A DNA stretch of 64,000 bases, taken from contig JAGONT010000007.1 in assembly GCA_017992885.1 (NCBI GenBank), positions 1-64,000 of the forward strand, read 5' to 3'. This document shows positions 8,643 through 18,184 of this stretch, piece after piece (position 1 is the stretch's first letter; each line of letters begins with the position of its first letter). Below the pieces are notes generated by a model. The model was not told the DNA's origin, searched no databases, and worked only from the letters and a program-made list of their open reading frames with translations. The position numbers were made by a program, and so were the translations under genes. This stretch comes from Alphaproteobacteria bacterium. GTDB taxonomy: Bacteria; Pseudomonadota; Alphaproteobacteria; UBA9655.

Positions 8643-9962
8643 TCACCAATGTGGTACTGCAAGGTTTGATTCAGTTGGTTGATCCGTACATAAGGTTAAT
8701 CTAGCGTTTTTTAAAAACATAATAATATACTGGCGGGTTATAAATGCGGTTAAAGAAAAACTTAAAGCAGTTGCAATGGCTGCTCCATACAGCCCGTATT
8801 TATAAGAAAAAAATGTGTTAAGCAATATATTGATACTTAGAATTATGAAGTTAACGTAACTCTGATGAGAGGGTTTGCCGACATGATTAGGAAAAAACTG
8901 GAGGGGCAGGTAATATGTTGAAAACAGAAGGCCTGTAATTAAAATTAAAAAGACATACATACTTTCAGAAAAATTATTTTGTAAAACAAAACAGAGATAA
9001 GCATAGTAAAAAAAAGTTGAGATTAATAACAGAAAGAACATTGTAATAAAAAAAAGGAAGCATACTTCCCTAATTTTATTCTCAAGAATATCATATTCTT
9101 GAGAATAAAAATATCGAGTAATTAATGGGTTTAAACTATTTCTTACTACAACTATAAGTTGTAGTAATCCCTCAACAACAAAAAATGCAAAGCTGTAAAT
9201 TCCAACACAAAGCTCATTCGTAAAATAAGATAATATTAAAACATCAACTCTTGAATTCAACTCTATTGATGCTCCAGCAAGAAAACTTTTTGCGCCAAAT
9301 ATAAAATGTTTTTTATACCAAGAGGATAAAGAAAGAGACCATGTAATTTTTCCCCAGAATATCCATAAACATGTTACAAAAACAATCATCTCAGATATTG
9401 TTATAATATATCCTAATTTATATAAATGTGAATTATTGTAAATTAATATTAATAAAACGGATAAAGAACTTACGTAGCGCAACGATGTTAACCCAGAAAA
9501 AGCTAGCATATAATTTTTGCCATTCATAAAAGCAAAAAAGCTTTTATTGAGGCTAAAAAAAATAATACCTGGAATAGTTATAATCCATGCCTCAGCTAAA
9601 TATTGAAATTTAAAAATATTGTCAATAAAAAATGAAAAAATGAAACAAAGCGCTATTACTAAAGAGGAAATTGAAAGAGACAACAAGAGGCCAGAAGAAA
9701 GTATTTTTTTTAATTCATTTTTTTTATTATGATTTTCAGCAGTATATTTTATCATTGAATAATGTAGACCAAAAGTAGAAAATTGACTAAATACTATAAA
9801 AAGTGCCATAACTAAATTAAACAAGCCTAGCCCCGCTGTGCCGTAAAATTTGTTAATTAAATAGTTAATCGCTAAACCACAAATAGCTAAAACACCTGTG
9901 CTGACGATATTAGCAAAAATTCCTGTGTTAAAAGAGTGACGAGAGAGCAAGGTTTGTCTCAT
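8643..9962 (-). CDS. Polysaccharide flippase, PST/Wzx-like
   Basis: A polytopic membrane protein with about 12-14 hydrophobic segments and the N-terminal pattern of the MATE/PST superfamily (NIVSTGVLAICGLAINYLI, then YGTAGLGLFNLVMA). These proteins translocate lipid-linked glycan units across the inner membrane. I place the start at the ATG at 9962 (MRQTLLSRHSF), because the longer open frame begins inside the upstream glycosyltransferase gene and its first 28 residues lack family character. The resulting product is 439 residues, a normal length. It is the last gene of the minus-strand glycan island, 13 bases after the GT2 gene. The substrate cannot be read from sequence. Confidence 0.85.
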   Translation of the reverse strand: MRQTLLSRHSFNTGIFANIVSTGVLAICGLAINYLINKFYGTAGLGLFNLVMALFIVFSQFSTFGLHYSMIKYTAENHNKKNELKKILSSGLLLSLSISSLVIALCFIFSFFIDNIFKFQYLAEAWIITIPGIIFFSLNKSFFAFMNGKNYMLAFSGLTSLRYVSSLSVLLILIYNNSHLYKLGYIITISEMIVFVTCLWIFWGKITWSLSLSSWYKKHFIFGAKSFLAGASIELNSRVDVLILSYFTNELCVGIYSFAFFVVEGLLQLIVVVRNSLNPLITRYFYSQEYDILENKIREVCFLFFITMFFLLLISTFFYYAYLCFVLQNNFSESMYVFLILITGLLFSTYYLPLQFFPNHVGKPSHQSYVNFIILSINILLNTFFSYKYGLYGAAIATALSFSLTAFITRQYIIMFLKNARLTLCTDQPTESNLAVPHW

Positions 9963-9975
9963 TTCAATATCATTT

Positions 9976-10923
9976 TTATCTAAGATTCTTATTGGTATCT
10001 TGATCAAACCACATTGCAAAAAAAGTAGATTGTATGCCACTTCCAAGGCAAAATAGGGATAAAATTAATGTGATTTCAGGGGCTTTGCCTTGTACAATCC
10101 ATAAGGTTAGAAATCTAAGCATCATAAATATCCCTACAAAGAGTGAAAAAAAACCATAGGCATAAAATAAAACTAAGGGGTGAAAATCTCGTATGATATA
10201 TTTCTCTCGGATGCGCCAAAAAAATAATTTTATTAAAAGGAAGCTAATAGGAAAGATAACTTTCCTAATCTTTAATTTAGATTTTTCACCTATATTATAA
10301 ACAGGTTTTAAAGGGATATCGCGAACACGAAAGTTATGAATATTCAAGCGAACGAGTAAATCATTGGGCTGTCCATAACGTTTATACATGGTATCCCAAT
10401 CAATGACTTGAAGAGCTTTTAGATTAATGACTGTATACCCCGTTTGAGAATCGCTGATATGCCAATAGCCTGAAGCTATTTTTGTTAATAAGGATAACAC
10501 GGCATTTCCCCAAAATCGCTTTTGGGGAATAAGTTGTTTTGAACCGGCATAAATTAAACGATTCGCTTTCGTATAATCAACTTCATCATTTACAATTGGA
10601 TCTAAGAGAGCGGGTAAATCTTTTGGATCCATTTGATTATCACCAGCCAAAACAGCGACCGCATCATATTTGTGATCACGTGCCCATTTGTACCCTGTAG
10701 CAATAGCGCCGCCTACACCTTGATTGCTATCATGATGCAAAAGGATAATGTTTGGATGGTTACTCATTTTTGATTCGATTACAGCGACAGTCTTATCCGT
10801 ACTGTCATCGTTAACAATAACAATGCTGTCTACGCAAGGATGCATAGAAGCAATGACTTTAATAATTTGCTCTTCTTCATTAAATGCAGGAACAATAGCT
10901 GCTATTTTTTTATTTTTGTACAT
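9976..10923 (-). CDS. GT2 glycosyltransferase, dolichyl-phosphate-mannose-synthase-like, membrane-anchored
   Basis: The N-terminal GT-A domain opens with IAAIVPAFNEEEQI and has a DDST nucleotide-binding motif, an N-Q-G-V-G-G-A stretch, AGDNQMDPKDLP as the D-x-D-like metal site, and a QTGY loop. Two C-terminal hydrophobic segments (from about residue 245) anchor it. This layout matches polyprenyl-phosphate sugar transferases that charge undecaprenyl phosphate with a hexose on the cytosolic face. Such donors feed GT-C enzymes in the periplasm, which fits the GT-C-like gene at the head of the same island. The ATG abuts an AT-rich 134-base gap. The sugar is unknown. Confidence 0.88.
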   Translation of the reverse strand: MYKNKKIAAIVPAFNEEEQIIKVIASMHPCVDSIVIVNDDSTDKTVAVIESKMSNHPNIILLHHDSNQGVGGAIATGYKWARDHKYDAVAVLAGDNQMDPKDLPALLDPIVNDEVDYTKANRLIYAGSKQLIPQKRFWGNAVLSLLTKIASGYWHISDSQTGYTVINLKALQVIDWDTMYKRYGQPNDLLVRLNIHNFRVRDIPLKPVYNIGEKSKLKIRKVIFPISFLLIKLFFWRIREKYIIRDFHPLVLFYAYGFFSLFVGIFMMLRFLTLWIVQGKAPEITLILSLFCLGSGIQSTFFAMWFDQDTNKNLR

Positions 10924-11057: not shown

Positions 11058-11720
11058 TTATCTAGTCAATACAACATGTATTCGATAATGGTAATGTAAG
11101 GAACCATAAACAGTATAATTTAGGTTGTTTTTTTTAGCAAATTTCTTGAAGGTTCGTATGCTGTGCCAATAACCCATACGGTTAATAGAGTTTCCTTTTA
11201 AGTGTAGTTTAATTAACTCTAAGATGGATCGTCTTGTTCCGTGATCATTGCGAAGACAACTTAATTTGGCTGTCTTCCATGGAATAGCTGCTAAAATGAT
11301 TTTTCCTTTTGAATTTAACATATTTTTCATGTTGCTTATGTGCGTGCTTAGCTGATTTGGGGTTAAATACTGAATCAACCCGCAAGAGAAAATAAGGTCA
11401 AATTTTTCATTAATTTTGAAATCTTCAGCAAGACTTTGTTGAAGTCTTACTTTCGGGTAATTTGATTTGAATACTGAAAGCATAGAGTCAGAAAAATCAA
11501 CTCCTAAATAATCTGATTTATCAAAGCCATAATTTTCAAATAATAAACCGTTACCACAACCGAATTCTAAAACTTTTTTCCCAGCTACATCTCCTATCAG
11601 AATGAGCATTTCTTTTGCAAATTGATCTCTATAATTTGGATCAACTTCCCTTGTGAGAGGACTTTGTGCGTCCTTCCACATCTTATACCATTTATTGTTA
11701 TTGAGAGATTCTGGCTGCAT
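11058..11720 (-). CDS. Class I SAM-dependent methyltransferase
   Basis: The 220-residue product has motif I as VLEFGCGNGLLF followed by an acidic strand end (YLGVDFSDSML), the signature of S-adenosylmethionine-binding Rossmann methyltransferases, and a later FDLIFSCGLIQYL motif. The acceptor is unknown. Its place between the FemAB-like and GT2 genes suggests that it methylates a sugar, an acyl group or an amino-acid substituent of the glycan. A 181-base gap separates it from the upstream gene, so it may have its own promoter or a different history from the first half of the island. Confidence 0.85.
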   Translation of the reverse strand: MQPESLNNNKWYKMWKDAQSPLTREVDPNYRDQFAKEMLILIGDVAGKKVLEFGCGNGLLFENYGFDKSDYLGVDFSDSMLSVFKSNYPKVRLQQSLAEDFKINEKFDLIFSCGLIQYLTPNQLSTHISNMKNMLNSKGKIILAAIPWKTAKLSCLRNDHGTRRSILELIKLHLKGNSINRMGYWHSIRTFKKFAKKNNLNYTVYGSLHYHYRIHVVLTR

Positions 11721-11901: not shown

Positions 11902-12933
11902 TCAGAGGGCTTGCTTTAGAATATACGGACCTATGATTTTATTTAAGCTTAAGGGCATTATCTTGAAGCTTTTAGTAAGACAATTTGCTAACAAGCCAGT
12001 TCGAGAAATATGCTTGTAGTTATCTGCCATAATTTTGTAATCCAAGTTATAATGTTGAGGACTCCACTTTTCCTTAAAGGCAATAAGAGTCGAGTGGTTT
12101 TTAGGGGATGAGCCAAAATCAAAAACGAGTTGATTTTGATTAAATGCGTGTTTAATTGCCTCCCAAAATAATACGTCCATAGGAAGGTATTTATTTGATA
12201 GGTTATTGTGAAGGGAGCCCCCATAAGCATAGAGAGAAGTAAATTTAAAATTGATAATAAGTATTCCTGCTAAGGGGATAGAGTTATGACAGGCAATAAA
12301 AAGATCAGTACGATTGCTCATTTTTTTATGTAAATTTATAAAAAAAGATTTTGGATAGGAAGCAGCACCCTGCCTTCTTTTTGAAGCAGCGGTTACCTCA
12401 TAGAGTATTTCGAAGTCTTCTTTTTTTTCAGATTTACGCACAGTTATAGCAGAAAATCCTTTTCGGATGTCTCTCCTCGCTCTTTGCTTCAGCTGAATCC
12501 AATAGTCATCGTGTGATTTAAATCTATCTAAATTTATTCGAGAATTGATATGTTCCTGTATTTCTTGACAATACTCAAAATTATTTGAATTGCTGTCGCG
12601 AATTTCAATGTACTTATATTTATTTTTTATTGTTTCAAGAAAGTTTAGTAAGGCTAGAGAAATATCACTATTATTAGCTAAAATAGGAACATTGTGTGAT
12701 AAGGGTAAACTTACTAAACGAGTCCCTTTTAAAATACCTTTAATTTCCATTAAAGAAATGCATCCGACAATTTTATTCTTGTCCTCTGCGATAACATAGA
12801 CAGGACTTAATCCGTACGTATCTTTCAGTACTTCATGCCACTCAAGTAAGTGATATACGTTAGTATTGGGATGTTGTTCAATAAAATGATTGTATTTTTC
12901 TACATCAACTGCAGATGATATGAAAATATTCAT
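11902..12933 (-). CDS. FemAB-like GNAT-fold acyltransferase
   Basis: 343 residues with the double-GNAT pattern of the FemABX superfamily: an N-terminal NTNVYHLLEWHEVLKDTYG (the 'hspew' region), VYVIAEDKNKIVGCISL, a central RARRDIRKGFSA, and a C-terminal half with GGSLHNNLSNKYLPMDVLFWEAI and FDFGSSP. Classical members add amino acids from aminoacyl-tRNA to peptidoglycan precursors; relatives in exopolysaccharide loci act on unknown acceptors. Here the neighbours are a deacetylase homologue and a sugar amidotransferase, so transfer of an amino acid or acyl group to a sugar amine is plausible but inferred. It starts three bases after the deacetylase gene. Confidence 0.8.
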   Translation of the reverse strand: MNIFISSAVDVEKYNHFIEQHPNTNVYHLLEWHEVLKDTYGLSPVYVIAEDKNKIVGCISLMEIKGILKGTRLVSLPLSHNVPILANNSDISLALLNFLETIKNKYKYIEIRDSNSNNFEYCQEIQEHINSRINLDRFKSHDDYWIQLKQRARRDIRKGFSAITVRKSEKKEDFEILYEVTAASKRRQGAASYPKSFFINLHKKMSNRTDLFIACHNSIPLAGILIINFKFTSLYAYGGSLHNNLSNKYLPMDVLFWEAIKHAFNQNQLVFDFGSSPKNHSTLIAFKEKWSPQHYNLDYKIMADNYKHISRTGLLANCLTKSFKIMPLSLNKIIGPYILKQAL

Positions 12934-12936
12934 AAA

Positions 12937-13713
12937 TTAAACTCGTGTTAATTTTATAAGTGATTTTATTGATTTTGCTGCTGTATCTAATAATACAGAT
13001 GTAGCATAGCTTTTAACTGAGTAAGCCCATCTTTCGGGGTGTGTTTGAATAATTAATCGTTTTGGTTTGTTTTTTTCGATATAAGAAATTAAACTTTGTG
13101 TGTTTGTTAAATTAGGTAAATTTACAGAAGAGGTTGAGATTCGATCTCTAAAATTTAATGAGGAGTCTCCCCAAGTTCTTAAGGTATCTGTAAAATAAGC
13201 TATTTTAGAATAGTCTAGAGATAAGTATATTTCAGCTAAGATACCATAATCTTTAAAATCATAATCGGTCCACATATCGCGGTTATCATAAGGTGAGAGG
13301 GGAGAGCCGTGCATGCAAATTGTAGTGACAGGAACTATAGATCTAAAATCATTTAATTCGCTTTCAAATAATGAAATGGCACGTTTTTTATCACCAGATG
13401 CTTTAGAAAGTGTTTCATAATGATAACCAATTTCATGATCTAAGTTAAATATTGATTTGATAATATCTTTTTTAAATACGGAACGAATGTGCCTAAAATA
13501 ATAAGTTGAGTTAATGTGCATATCTCGCTCTAGCTCTGCCATTTTTAAAGCATTATAAGGGAGCCTATCAACATCGTGACGCATAACGACAATCTTTTTA
13601 TTTTTTTTGTAGGCAATCTCTTCATAAAATTCTTTACATGTTGTAAATTCATATCCTTGTTCAAATAAAAAGTAGCATAGTTTTTTATAATATTTTAAAG
13701 AAAAATCATACAT
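12937..13713 (-). CDS. Polysaccharide deacetylase homologue, WbmS-like
   Basis: It has the NodB-fold signature RHDVDRLPYNAL (metal-binding Asp pair) and HEIGYHYETL as the second motif, then CMHGSPLSPYDNRDMW and a late HPERW. This combination recalls the WbmS-type deacetylases of O-antigen loci rather than chitin deacetylases, and the second His of the usual H-x3-H pair is not present. It may remove an N- or O-acyl group from a glycan sugar, or have another hydrolytic role. I choose the ATG at 13713: the longer frame (to 13761) lies inside the preceding gene, and the chosen start overlaps that gene by only eight bases. Product about 258 residues. Confidence 0.75.
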   Translation of the reverse strand: MYDFSLKYYKKLCYFLFEQGYEFTTCKEFYEEIAYKKNKKIVVMRHDVDRLPYNALKMAELERDMHINSTYYFRHIRSVFKKDIIKSIFNLDHEIGYHYETLSKASGDKKRAISLFESELNDFRSIVPVTTICMHGSPLSPYDNRDMWTDYDFKDYGILAEIYLSLDYSKIAYFTDTLRTWGDSSLNFRDRISTSSVNLPNLTNTQSLISYIEKNKPKRLIIQTHPERWAYSVKSYATSVLLDTAAKSIKSLIKLTRV

Positions 13714-15532
13714 ATATTTTTTTGGCATTATCAATTGTGCGAATAGCTTTCTTGAGATCAAAACCTATCATTCTGGCGTAGTCCTGCATAGAATCATACA
13801 TAATAATATTCTCTTCACGTGTCATTTTAAGGGCATCTTCACGTGTAATGAGACCTTGGCGAATTTGATTGCTGCGGAACGTTTCATGTTCCGTAAATCC
13901 AGCAAGTGTGAAATAAATGTAGTTATAAAAAGCAGCCGTTCCATCTCCTATTCTCCAAATAATATCAGAAGATGGGTTTGCCTCCCAATTATATTCAGCT
14001 TTAAGCGTATTTAAAATCACATTTTCGTTCCAAGAGATGTAGTCATAAAAGGATTTGTAATTATGCTTTAAAATGCAAGAGTAATAAAAAGAACACATTG
14101 TATCAAAAAAAGAAACATTAAAATAAGAGGGGTTTTTTAAGAAATTAATTAAAAAATATTTTAGCAGTTTTAGCTTTTGAAAAGCTGAAGTATGACAATA
14201 CCAGGTATTTTTTTCATGGACACCACAAAATGCTGATTTGAAGCTAGTATATTCAAGAGGGTTTCCACCAAAGAAGGCAAGGTCGATGTTCATATCTTTT
14301 TGAATGTTTTTGGGATGATAAAAGAACTCCTTATCCCCAGCCATGAAAAGGGTAACCATGCCGACTTCTGGCTTTTTAAGCCAAGCTTCAATATTCTTTC
14401 TTACATAAGATCTTTTTTTAGGAATATCAGCCGAAACCAAAATATTCTCGACACCTAACTTACCACACATACGGGCAATGTTTCGGCGAGCTAAGTCTGT
14501 TATGACTCCCCAGTCATAGGTATAGGTTATAGGATTCATTTTTAAGACACATTTGACATAGTGTAATAAATAGCTGCTATCCAATCCACCACTAAAGGCT
14601 ATGAGACAATCTGGAGATCCATCTTTCTTTCGATGCTGATCACACAAATTTTCGAGCGAAGCGTGTCCATAAGGTTGAAAGGGAACATAATCATGACAAA
14701 TATTGCATACACCCTTGCTATCAAAGTGAATGCCAGGAAAACTTTCAGGAAGAATACATCTTGAACAACGTTTTAAGTCTCTTTTTTCTTTTTGTGAGGC
14801 GTTTAAATCGATAAAATTAGTTTTTTTTGGTTGATCAAAGGAAAGGAGTTTTATGACATGGGGTTTTAATTGATGAACTGGTTGAGAAGCTAAATATTTC
14901 TCAGAAATTTTTTTTAAAAATGCATGTTGAGAGGCAAAGACAAAATATTCGTTACTTATACCACTATAATATAGTGATCCTGTATTTGTTTTAAGAGCCA
15001 AAACATTCCGGTCTTCAAATAAGCAACAAATAGAAGCATCTCCTTCAATAACTTGATAAAGGGACTCAAGGGCCTCTTCAAGAGAGTGAGATTTAAGTTT
15101 TTGAGCTAAGAAAATAGGGATAATGTCTGTGTCAAGTTCTGATGGTGGATTTTGCTTAAAAACATCACGCCAGATAGAGGAATAGTTACATATAATTCCA
15201 TTATGGATAACAACAATTCCATTGCTTACAACTGGTTGATTATTAGCTATAAGGGATCGATCACCATTTGTAACTAAGCGCGTGTGACCTGTCAGAATCA
15301 GATCGTCTTGAGTAAGATCAATATTTTTTAGAAGCTCTTTAAATTGTTTGCTACGGATTAAATCTGAGGCAGGTTTGTCATGCCGTAAGACATGCAGTTT
15401 ATCTTGATGCCTTATCGCAATGCCGCTTGCTTCCTTTCCCCGTGATTCAGATAAACGGTATAAATCGAGTAATAAATTTTGCCAATTTATTTTAGAATTT
15501 TGTTTAAGATAAAACCCTAAAATGCCACACAT
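13706..15532 (-). CDS. Fusion: class II glutamine amidotransferase + N-acetyl-sugar amidotransferase (WbpG/PseA-like)
   Basis: The protein starts MCGILGF: Cys2 is the N-terminal nucleophile of Ntn-type glutaminases, supported by GHTRLVTNG and VVIHNGIICNY. From about residue 255 a second domain begins with a Cys-rich element (RCSRCILPESFPGI, then GVCNIC) and the PP-loop AFSGGLDSSYLL, the hallmark of N-acetyl-sugar amidotransferases such as WbpG and PseA, which turn an N-acetyl into an acetamidino group. Those enzymes normally receive ammonia from a separate class I glutaminase (WbpH); here a class II glutaminase is fused in frame. Asparagine synthetase is the alternative, but the cysteine pairs argue against it. 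The ATG shares a base with the preceding stop (TAATG). Confidence 0.82.
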   Translation of the reverse strand: MCGILGFYLKQNSKINWQNLLLDLYRLSESRGKEASGIAIRHQDKLHVLRHDKPASDLIRSKQFKELLKNIDLTQDDLILTGHTRLVTNGDRSLIANNQPVVSNGIVVIHNGIICNYSSIWRDVFKQNPPSELDTDIIPIFLAQKLKSHSLEEALESLYQVIEGDASICCLFEDRNVLALKTNTGSLYYSGISNEYFVFASQHAFLKKISEKYLASQPVHQLKPHVIKLLSFDQPKKTNFIDLNASQKEKRDLKRCSRCILPESFPGIHFDSKGVCNICHDYVPFQPYGHASLENLCDQHRKKDGSPDCLIAFSGGLDSSYLLHYVKCVLKMNPITYTYDWGVITDLARRNIARMCGKLGVENILVSADIPKKRSYVRKNIEAWLKKPEVGMVTLFMAGDKEFFYHPKNIQKDMNIDLAFFGGNPLEYTSFKSAFCGVHEKNTWYCHTSAFQKLKLLKYFLINFLKNPSYFNVSFFDTMCSFYYSCILKHNYKSFYDYISWNENVILNTLKAEYNWEANPSSDIIWRIGDGTAAFYNYIYFTLAGFTEHETFRSNQIRQGLITREDALKMTREENIIMYDSMQDYARMIGFDLKKAIRTIDNAKKIYV

Positions 15533-16773
15533 TAACTTCCTCTTTCAATCGATAATGAGCTCAACGTAAAATTTTGTACGTTATTAAGGTTTCCAGACTT
15601 GATATAGATAAGAACATTAGAATTTTCATGGAAAGGGATGGATATGGTTTTTTCTTTCTCACTAATAGAATATTCATAAGTCTTTTTAGGCAGTAACGTT
15701 AACAAAACCCATCGACTCGGCCCCCATTTTAAAAGCTGATCAAAGTGTTCTGTATGAGAGAATATAGCGATAGTAATTGTTCCATAACCACTTGCCTTAA
15801 ATTTCAGAGAGTCACCTGGTAAGAAGGGTTTTTTAAAATTTAAAATTTCATAATCATTTACGTTTAGAGTGGCAATTCCTTGGTTGTCTTGGTTTACGAG
15901 CCTGTTATTTTTATGGTAACATAATAAATTTATAGGACTCAGTGGTTTTTCTTGTAACTCATAGGATAATCTTACGCTATGAAACGTAAATTGAGAATGT
16001 TCGGATGAAAGAACTAGGCGAAAGGGTTCATGCGAATGTAAAAATCTAGTAAACAAATAATTCTTTCCCTTTTTTAAATAAAAAGATTGAGTTCCGCAAG
16101 ATGCTAAATAAGGATGAATTTCTAAGTCCAGTTGTGTATCTTTATCAACTTCTACGTCCATTTCACAGATGAAGTCATATAAGCCAGGCTCTAAAGTAGG
16201 AAAGTCGTTATGTTCAATTCTTGGCATCACTCTCAAATCAGGGAACTCACCATTATGACTGGCATATTTATAAAATTTCCCCACCTTTTTAACGAAAGAC
16301 ATTTGTAGGAGGGTACTTGCATAGTTAAAAGGAAGTTTAGAGGATTCTATTTTAAAAATTTTCCAATCGTCATAGTCAAATATTATTCTGCTTTTATTTG
16401 GGTTATAGAGTATATGATTTAAAAAAGGAGAGTACATGATTGGATCACTATAATCATTAAGAGCAATATATTTTATGTTTTTTAGATCGTCATTAGCTAA
16501 AAATATGTCAAAAAAACGCTTGTCTTCTATATTTATAATATCAACATTTGTATAATGTAATATTTCTCCTTGCCTCATGACTAATGTGGGACCTTGCAGT
16601 TGGTTTAAAAAGGTTAATACATCTGAGAATTTTTTCAAGGAGGGGTTTTTTTCTATTTTTTTTCTCTCCTCAATGAAACTGATAATTGTAGAAAATTCAA
16701 AAGCTTTATAGAAATAGGCTGCTAGAGGACATAATAATAAAAAGATAATAAGTGTTTTTTTAAATTTTTGCAT
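15532..16773 (-). CDS. Membrane-anchored periplasmic protein, possible C-terminal half of a split GT-C glycosyltransferase
   Basis: The 413-residue product has one N-terminal transmembrane segment (about residues 8-22) followed by a soluble, probably periplasmic, beta-rich domain. Residues 45-110 read like the post-membrane domain of ArnT/PMT-type glycosyltransferases (a short helix, then GPTLVMRQGEILHYTNVDI and a stretch ending in IKYIALNDYS). The remainder is unfamiliar, perhaps carbohydrate-binding. It overlaps the upstream polytopic gene by 14 bases. Removing one base from a five-T run on the plus strand (16765-16769) would fuse the two frames. It could be a true separate subunit or the broken half of one enzyme. 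Confidence 0.65.
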   Translation of the reverse strand: MQKFKKTLIIFLLLCPLAAYFYKAFEFSTIISFIEERKKIEKNPSLKKFSDVLTFLNQLQGPTLVMRQGEILHYTNVDIINIEDKRFFDIFLANDDLKNIKYIALNDYSDPIMYSPFLNHILYNPNKSRIIFDYDDWKIFKIESSKLPFNYASTLLQMSFVKKVGKFYKYASHNGEFPDLRVMPRIEHNDFPTLEPGLYDFICEMDVEVDKDTQLDLEIHPYLASCGTQSFYLKKGKNYLFTRFLHSHEPFRLVLSSEHSQFTFHSVRLSYELQEKPLSPINLLCYHKNNRLVNQDNQGIATLNVNDYEILNFKKPFLPGDSLKFKASGYGTITIAIFSHTEHFDQLLKWGPSRWVLLTLLPKKTYEYSISEKEKTISIPFHENSNVLIYIKSGNLNNVQNFTLSSLSIERGS

Positions 16774-18184
16774 TTAGCAACCGTCTTAGACTAAGGATAC
16801 CGAAGAATGCAACCAAGGGAAGAGCTTGTAAAAGATATCTTGGGTTAAAAACAAAAGTGTTCTTCCCCAGAAGTGTTGCTAAAATCACTATTACAAAGAA
16901 AAAAAAGACAACTGTAAAAATAAAATCCATATAGTCCCATTTATTGTCTCTTAAATCTTTTACTGTAGGCTTAAAGCATAAAAATATTCCGATTACGCCT
17001 AACCAATAAGAAAAACCATACTCAAATGGACTAAAAAAAAGTTGTTCTACCAATCTAAAGAATTTTTCATCTAAGGAACCTATCTTTCTTGAGACGGCAA
17101 AGTAGTGTTCATATTCATTAGATAAATAAGTAATGATTTGGATATTTTCTAGATCCCCAATTAATCTTCCATGTACAGAATAAATTTTTATAACATCTAA
17201 AAGTACAAAAAACAAACTTGAAAAGATAATTATACTGCTTCCTACAAAAATATTCTTTATAACTCTTATAGAAAGACATCTGTCTTGCAATAATGAAAAG
17301 AATCCATAAGTCCCTAACACGACAGCTAATGTTAATAGGCCAGAACTATGAGCAAACCAAGAAAGCCCACAAGAAACACCAACAAGGATTAAGCTTCCTT
17401 GGTTGGTGAAATGATCATATAGGGCTATGATAGCTAAGAGAAAAAGGAGCATACGAATAGAGTCTATATGCGCCTCTAAAACGTTAGAATAAACTAATGG
17501 AGTTGTTAAAAAAATAAGGGAAAAAAGCATACAGGGTTTAATATTTTCCTTAATTTGAATAATGCACGCAACAAATAATGTTAAGAAAATACACAAAAAG
17601 GATAAAACTTTTCCTGTGAAAAGGCCAAACTCAGCACCGAGCGTAAGCTGACCCCACGCAAGTAAGGCTGGGTACCCTATAGGATGAGTAAAGGGAGCGA
17701 GTAAACCTTGAGAATCTACGCTAGAAACGTTCGGGTAAAATCCCAGATCTTTTTTGACATCTATCAAGTGACTGATATAAAAATATTCTAAAGAATCGTT
17801 GCCTAATAAAGGCATGTTTATGTACCAGAGGAGGATAAAAAGCAAAAGGAACCCAGTGATTGTAAGATATATTTTTTCTTCAAAAATAGGTTTAAAAATA
17901 GAAAATTCCTTTAAAAAATTGGGAAGGATAGAAGGTTGCAATGAACTAAAAACCAAGGGAACTGTGGTCAAGAGAAGATAAAACGTTGATGAGTGACCGG
18001 GTGCAAAACGTAAAAGTACCATATAAAACCATGAAAGTAAGGTTGGCGAAAGCCCCATAGATAAAGCAAAAGTATAGTTTCCTTTAAAATTTAAATAATG
18101 AAATAAACTGTATAAAGTAACAGGTAAAAAAAACAAGAGTACACTAAGTTTAAAAGCAATCAATAGACCATCTGTTGCAGTCAT
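16760..18184 (-). CDS. Polytopic GT-C-like glycosyltransferase (ArnT/PMT-type membrane part)
   Basis: About ten to eleven hydrophobic segments over 474 residues. An acidic site follows the second or third segment (LLGNDSLEYFYISHL), in the place where GT-C enzymes have the catalytic Asp of the first periplasmic loop, and HPIGYPALLAWGQL resembles the loop that follows. The C-terminal FNPRYLLQALPLVAFFGIL is a typical last-helix motif. Such enzymes move a sugar from a polyprenyl-phosphate donor to a lipid or glycan acceptor in the periplasm; the GT2 gene downstream could make the donor. The soluble domain that usually follows is encoded in another frame (15532-16773). This is the first gene of the minus-strand island. 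Confidence 0.75.
   Translation of the reverse strand: MTATDGLLIAFKLSVLLFFLPVTLYSLFHYLNFKGNYTFALSMGLSPTLLSWFYMVLLRFAPGHSSTFYLLLTTVPLVFSSLQPSILPNFLKEFSIFKPIFEEKIYLTITGFLLLFILLWYINMPLLGNDSLEYFYISHLIDVKKDLGFYPNVSSVDSQGLLAPFTHPIGYPALLAWGQLTLGAEFGLFTGKVLSFLCIFLTLFVACIIQIKENIKPCMLFSLIFLTTPLVYSNVLEAHIDSIRMLLFLLAIIALYDHFTNQGSLILVGVSCGLSWFAHSSGLLTLAVVLGTYGFFSLLQDRCLSIRVIKNIFVGSSIIIFSSLFFVLLDVIKIYSVHGRLIGDLENIQIITYLSNEYEHYFAVSRKIGSLDEKFFRLVEQLFFSPFEYGFSYWLGVIGIFLCFKPTVKDLRDNKWDYMDFIFTVVFFFFVIVILATLLGKNTFVFNPRYLLQALPLVAFFGILSLRRLLNAKI

Follow-up and report, generated by a model that had tools for sequence, protein, structure and literature searches.

A widespread fusion of a class II glutaminase with an N-acetyl sugar amidotransferase domain, probably a self-contained enzyme of surface-glycan pathways

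Acetamidino sugars, which mark flagella, O-antigens, and archaeal N-glycans, bring a positive charge to glycans that would usually be neutral or acidic. In the known bacteria, the step that produces them is divided among three separate proteins. The ammonia subunits encoded beside wbpG are HisH2 and HisF2 (PMC13277307), while WbpH, which an earlier note on the DNA analyzed here had taken for the class I glutaminase feeding WbpG, is in fact a glycosyltransferase (PMC13277307). In archaea, an acetamidino group is lost when the WbpG homologue MMP1081 is deleted (PMC2952790). For the N-acetyl sugar amidotransferase (NASAT) itself, the authors of the Legionella structure 8WEX (LpNASAT) proposed a chemistry in which ATP is converted to AMP and PPi, and described NASAT function as little known (PMC10607449). 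The protein described here is a NASAT that carries its own class II glutaminase; its family is widespread and unnamed.

The window (the entire 64,000-nucleotide stretch of alphaproteobacterial DNA that was analyzed) contains an uninterrupted minus-strand ORF at 13706..15532, which encodes a protein of 608 aa (P0001) supported as a fusion by profile, PDB, and model evidence. All the features of the window described below are likewise on the minus strand. Residues 1-251 (14780..15532) comprise a class II (Ntn, GlmS-like) glutaminase and a linker, as delineated by profiles, alignment to 1xff, conservation, and pLDDT; the glutaminase proper extends to about residue 230, and the linker, at about residues 232-251, is predicted to be disordered. 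Residues 252-608 (13709..14779) form the NASAT domain with its tetracysteine and PP-loop, as defined by profiles, conservation, and profile-profile alignment. The motifs MCGILGF, RCSRCILPESFPGIHFD, GVCNIC, and AFSGGLDSSYLL, which the earlier note had read as lying in one frame, are all found in this ORF with MCGILGF at its start, and profile, structure, and tree evidence concur with its view that a class II glutaminase has been joined to a WbpG/PseA-type domain. The ATG of the fused gene overlaps the stop codon of an upstream gene for a 413-aa protein by one base, and its 3' end abuts or overlaps the downstream ORF, which places it within a tight minus-strand gene cluster.

Searching the two halves separately, as the earlier note had advised, recovered GATase_7 and GlmS for the first half and TIGR03573, below its cutoff, for the second, with the Pfam search giving no match to Asn_synthase (PF00733). 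The GATase_7 match covers residues 84-206 with 31.2 bits (Pfam cutoff, 25), and against the NCBIfam profiles residues 1-250 score 71 bits with GlmS, 47 bits with PurF, and 28 bits with AsnB. Residues 254-573 match the TIGR03573 WbuX profile with 130.8 bits (E=8e-38), short of the curated cutoff of 203.2 bits; judged by sequence, the NASAT half is a distant sister group lying outside the curated subfamily. A sequence search of the PDB likewise retrieved 8wex for the second half (E=4e-12) and GlmS for the first. An assembly artifact or chimera is ruled out by a fused orthologue with 85% identity in a sister species and by hundreds of relatives elsewhere. The sister genome also carries a second fused copy (L033:2758-4707, minus strand), 44% identical, which lies in another glycan cluster together with a GT2, an epimerase, a flippase, and a dehydrogenase/transketolase-like gene pair belonging to that cluster.

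When 78 fused relatives were aligned, both halves proved to keep their catalytic residues. The glutaminase nucleophile C2 is kept in 77 of the 78, and R85, N111, G112, and D134, which align with R73, N98, G99, and D123 of GlmS (1xff), are kept in every one; by this alignment C2 is the nucleophile and the others provide the oxyanion pair plus the Arg and Asp that bind glutamine. Hence, as read from the sequence, the Cys2 and Arg/Asn-Gly/Asp set of a class II glutaminase is complete. In the NASAT half, the zinc-type tetracysteine (CxxC...GxCxxC; C256/C259/C276/C279) and the PP-loop SGGxDS at 314-319 are present in 78/78 relatives, the variable PP-loop position being Leu in the window protein (SGGLDS) and its orthologue and Arg in 76 of the 78. 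An AlphaFold2 model built with 31 relatives reached a pLDDT of 83 and a pTM of 0.82, with values under 50 confined to the linker (232-251) and residues 87-90. In a fold search with this model, the top PDB match was the NASAT 8wex (E=1e-13), followed by GlmS/GFAT, human ASNS, and PurF.

The gene neighborhoods bear on the source of ammonia. With regard to INDEPENDENCE from HisH/HisF, HisH2/HisF2 are present in 3 of 82 fused-gene neighborhoods; two of these three also hold a separate WbpG-like gene alongside, and in the third, from Agrobacterium, a separate gene annotated as an N-acetyl sugar amidotransferase lies about 5 kb away from hisH. At a distance of up to 4 kb, a HisH gene accompanies 2/75 fused genes versus 13/20 stand-alone NASATs (Fisher p=2e-9), and among fused loci drawn by phylum HisH/HisF were found in 2 of 20, again beside a separate NASAT. 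The HisH/HisF genes in fused neighborhoods are therefore explained by stand-alone NASATs of their own, and the fused enzyme is independent of them. The same genome provides an internal control, with a classical NASAT(WbpG)-HisF2-HisH2 trio on contig C72 (L035:5765-8305), so that the two systems coexist in one cell. In two other Alphaproteobacteria, we observed a HisF2-like barrel fused in frame to the N terminus of a stand-alone-type NASAT (L121:205-2622, plus strand, 805 aa; L122:544-2625, plus strand, 693 aa). Here the class I ammonia route has been fused independently, and the ammonia supplier has accordingly been joined to a NASAT at least twice.

The most frequent partner of the fused gene is a GT2 glycosyltransferase of the polyprenyl-phosphate-sugar-synthase type (AglJ/PpgS/DPMS-like) with two C-terminal TM segments, represented in the window at 9976..10923, for which the sole match in a PDB search was dolichol-phosphate mannose synthase. 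Neighborhood clustering places this GT2 in 54 of 78 fused loci, mostly directly upstream on the same strand; 44/75 fused loci have it no farther than 4 kb away, versus 1/20 stand-alone NASAT loci (p=9e-6), and it recurs in 10 of the 20 phylum-drawn loci, which were chosen without similarity ranking. The GT2 is thus a recurrent but not universal partner. A Wzx-type polysaccharide flippase (8643..10046) represents the second commonest neighbor, and a multi-pass membrane protein of 474 aa (16760..18184), a putative GT-C glycosyltransferase on the basis of a weak profile match, has relatives in the vicinity of the fused gene at 9 loci. The remaining neighbors across the family are largely methyltransferases, epimerases, acetyltransferases, and glycosyltransferases; in the window, profile matches identify a SAM-dependent methyltransferase (11058..11720) and a FemAB/GNAT-like acyltransferase (11902..12933). 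Directly downstream of the fused gene is a polysaccharide-deacetylase-like ORF (12937..13761), recognized by eye from the motifs RHDVD, HEIGYHYE, and HGSP, with no Pfam match and no NCBIfam match of note; its translation probably begins at 13728 or 13713, and relatives of it occur in about 10 fused loci. Directly upstream, the 413-aa protein (15532..16773) has one N-terminal TM segment and no family match; its translation appears to be coupled to that of the fused gene, and it is kept in the sister genome. A nonulosonic-acid pathway was considered as the default context and rejected, there being no nonulosonate synthase among the 25 commonest neighbor families of fused loci.

A scan of one genome per species across 84,980 species recovered 466 relatives, ruling out a protein unique to one genome. 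In the best 80 of the 466, the matches span essentially the whole protein, and these come from Alpha-, Beta-, Gamma-, and Deltaproteobacteria, Bdellovibrionia, Myxococcota, Bacteroidota, Ignavibacteria, Planctomycetota, Verrucomicrobia, Chloroflexota, Patescibacteria, Omnitrophota, Nitrospinota, Atribacteria, KSB1, Sumerlaeota, Deferribacterales, and two groups of archaea. Since the choice of these 80 depended on their similarity to the window protein, the fusion and neighbor counts were rechecked in evenly drawn phylum samples, with the genome on which each sample was centered left out of the counts. Fused copies were found in 2/397 Pseudomonadota, 5/394 Bacteroidota, 10/391 Planctomycetota, and 3/294 genomes of one archaeal phylum; the subfamily is hence rare but regular within phyla. 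The glutaminase half was present in each of the 20 fused loci that were retrieved again from these samples, and in the Pseudomonadota sample the NASAT-half profile separated fused members (544-588 bits) from stand-alone NASATs (at most 86 bits) by a clean gap. The author of the earlier note had not seen the arrangement described, and our literature search of 5.4 million open papers likewise found no description of the fusion; it is, however, far from unique, being a common family that is neither named nor annotated as such. In the databases its members pass as GlmS, QueC, or hypothetical proteins, as in Solidesulfovibrio carbinolicus (“7-cyano-7-deazaguanine synthase”) and Agrobacterium (“glucosamine 6-phosphate synthetase” or “hypothetical”).

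Relatives are also found in viruses. A single-sequence scan of viral contigs found none, and an alignment scan found three. Two phage contigs (L170 and L171) encode the full 608-aa fused protein, the gene in L171 (4260-6086, plus strand) directly adjoining portal- and protease-like phage ORFs. The third, on a viral contig of 119.5 kb, is a 370-aa protein consisting of the NASAT half only (L169:4965-6077, plus strand), surrounded by sugar genes resembling WecB, GMD, FnlA, and RmlD; that viral record yielded no class II glutaminase.

In a tree of 57 sequences, all fused members fall in one clade (support, 100/99) within which three glutaminase-less rows are nested, namely, the phage copy, the second copy of a planctomycete, and a copy from Bacteroidota with a seemingly truncated N terminus; these look like secondary losses. 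Unfused archaeal relatives lie just outside the fused clade (98/95), with typical NASATs farther out. The nearest of these relatives are L203:4975-6048 (minus strand), L206:4990-6063 (plus strand), L202, L204, L205, and L207; the GT2 partner is adjacent or nearly so in two of the six, and within about 5 kb of them neither HisH nor HisF was found, nor a class II glutaminase encoded separately. The NASAT halves of the fused family share a mean pairwise identity of 54.6% across phyla (5th percentile, 48.6%), a value somewhat inflated in absolute terms by the ranking of the set by similarity to the window protein, a ranking from which the Pseudomonadota score gap is free. By comparison, the mean is 27% for stand-alone Pseudomonadota NASATs and 35% for the glutaminase halves of the fused family. 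Some 40 positions are invariant among fused members and not in stand-alone NASATs, over and above a core common to both (the four cysteines, SGGxDS, N351, E427, and R564). The simplest reading is that this conservation reflects a single acceptor shared throughout the family, whereas the acceptors of O-antigen NASATs vary from strain to strain.

Taking these observations together, we propose that the fused protein is likely a self-contained glutamine-dependent NASAT, in which one chain replaces WbpG, HisF2, and HisH2 in a surface-glycan pathway. That it is a single-chain enzyme, as the earlier note had envisaged, is probable from the intact glutaminase residues and NASAT homology combined in one 608-aa chain with no HisH/HisF. 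In the mechanism that we envision, Cys2, whose supporting residues are observed in the alignment, would attack glutamine to release NH3, which would pass within the chain to the C-terminal PP-loop domain. There, ATP would activate the amide oxygen of a sugar N-acetyl group, yielding AMP and PPi, and NH3 would displace the activated oxygen to form an acetamidino (amidine) group; both the amidine chemistry and the acetamidino product are inferred from the NASAT relationship. The substrate would probably be an N-acetylhexosamine on, or destined for, polyprenyl phosphate, and the enzyme would act together with the partner GT2 and often a flippase; the link to polyprenyl phosphate is suggested by the neighboring GT2, flippase, and putative GT-C genes. 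A broader and decidedly more tentative idea is that the amidination of one common N-acetylhexosamine of this kind might constitute a single, anciently conserved surface-glycan step of bacteria, archaea, and some phages, served by the single-chain synthase and a dedicated GT2 and independent of the strain-variable WbpG/HisH/HisF systems.

Several alternatives compete with the glutamine-dependent NASAT. The earlier note had also entertained an asparagine synthetase (AsnB) relative with a new acceptor, and AsnB does have the same domain order (Ntn glutaminase, then PP-loop synthetase) and supplies structures among the fold-search matches. However, profile-profile comparison (hhalign) of the second half with stand-alone NASATs gave 100% probability (E=3e-46) over 344 columns versus 27% over about 60 columns with the synthetase half of AsnB, and together with 8wex as the best fold match this makes the second half a NASAT and not an AsnB. 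The tetracysteine motif, a glutaminase nearer to GlmS than to AsnB, and the unmatched Asn_synthase profile point the same way; neither the Pfam nor the profile-profile evidence places the second half squarely in AsnB, and this reading, which is refuted at the family level, retains only a very slight probability. A somewhat stronger contender would have the NASAT architecture forming another nitrogen bond, for instance, converting a sugar carboxylate to a uronamide or making another amide. Glutaminase-fused synthetases that amidate carboxylates are common in glycan clusters, and AsnB-like glycan amidotransferases are thought to make such bonds; AsnB-type genes indeed lie near 13 fused loci. The roughly 40 family-specific invariant residues and the score below the WbuX cutoff also leave room for a different acceptor, or even a different chemistry. 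Against this, the entire core of the acetamidino-forming NASATs is kept, several clusters already have a separate AsnB-type enzyme, and the similarity to AsnB is limited to the PP-loop; we hence regard another bond as unlikely.

Alternatively, the NASAT might take free ammonia, with the glutaminase domain surviving as a passive or regulatory remnant. The absence of a glutaminase near the unfused archaeal relatives and the phage copy would fit such a state, as would the faster divergence of the glutaminase domain (35% versus 55% mean identity), and its loss in the phage L169, a planctomycete, and the unfused archaeal relatives implies that the reaction does not absolutely depend on the fused domain. 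Nevertheless, a remnant would not keep its catalytic residues invariant across 78 sequences from many phyla, and nearly all members keep the fusion in samples drawn without similarity ranking. A remnant is therefore quite improbable, and a working, glutamine-fed NASAT is the reading that we prefer. As a system of one protein and one glutamine, it would be a tractable enzyme for demonstrating NASAT chemistry and a good candidate for reconstituting acetamidino-sugar synthesis with one protein; the strong conservation of the family suggests a conserved acceptor across many phyla, and its recognition corrects the annotation of a family now listed as GlmS, QueC, or hypothetical.

Comparison with the known systems sets the fused family apart from each of them. 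With the NASATs of the WbpG/WbuX/PseA/AglX type (TIGR03573; LpNASAT, 8WEX) it has in common the zinc-type tetracysteine, the SGGxDS loop, a full-length profile match, and the fold, but the known ones are single-domain, sequence-diverse proteins that need separate HisH2/HisF2, whereas the fused family has its own class II glutaminase, no HisH/HisF, its extra invariant residues, and a score below the TIGR03573 cutoff. The HisH2/HisF2 (AglY/AglZ-type) subunits deliver glutamine-derived NH3 to a NASAT, as is proposed for the fused glutaminase, but they do so by a class I (triad) glutaminase and a barrel conduit in place of an Ntn class II glutaminase in one chain. The partner GT2 agrees with AglJ, PpgS, and dolichol-phosphate mannose synthase in family and in C-terminal TM layout, although all its scores fall below the curated cutoffs. 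Finally, GlmS, PurF, and AsnB also fuse an N-terminal-Cys Ntn glutaminase to a synthase domain, but their acceptor domains are an SIS isomerase, a PRTase, and Asn_synthase, respectively, and none of them has the NASAT domain that distinguishes the family described here.
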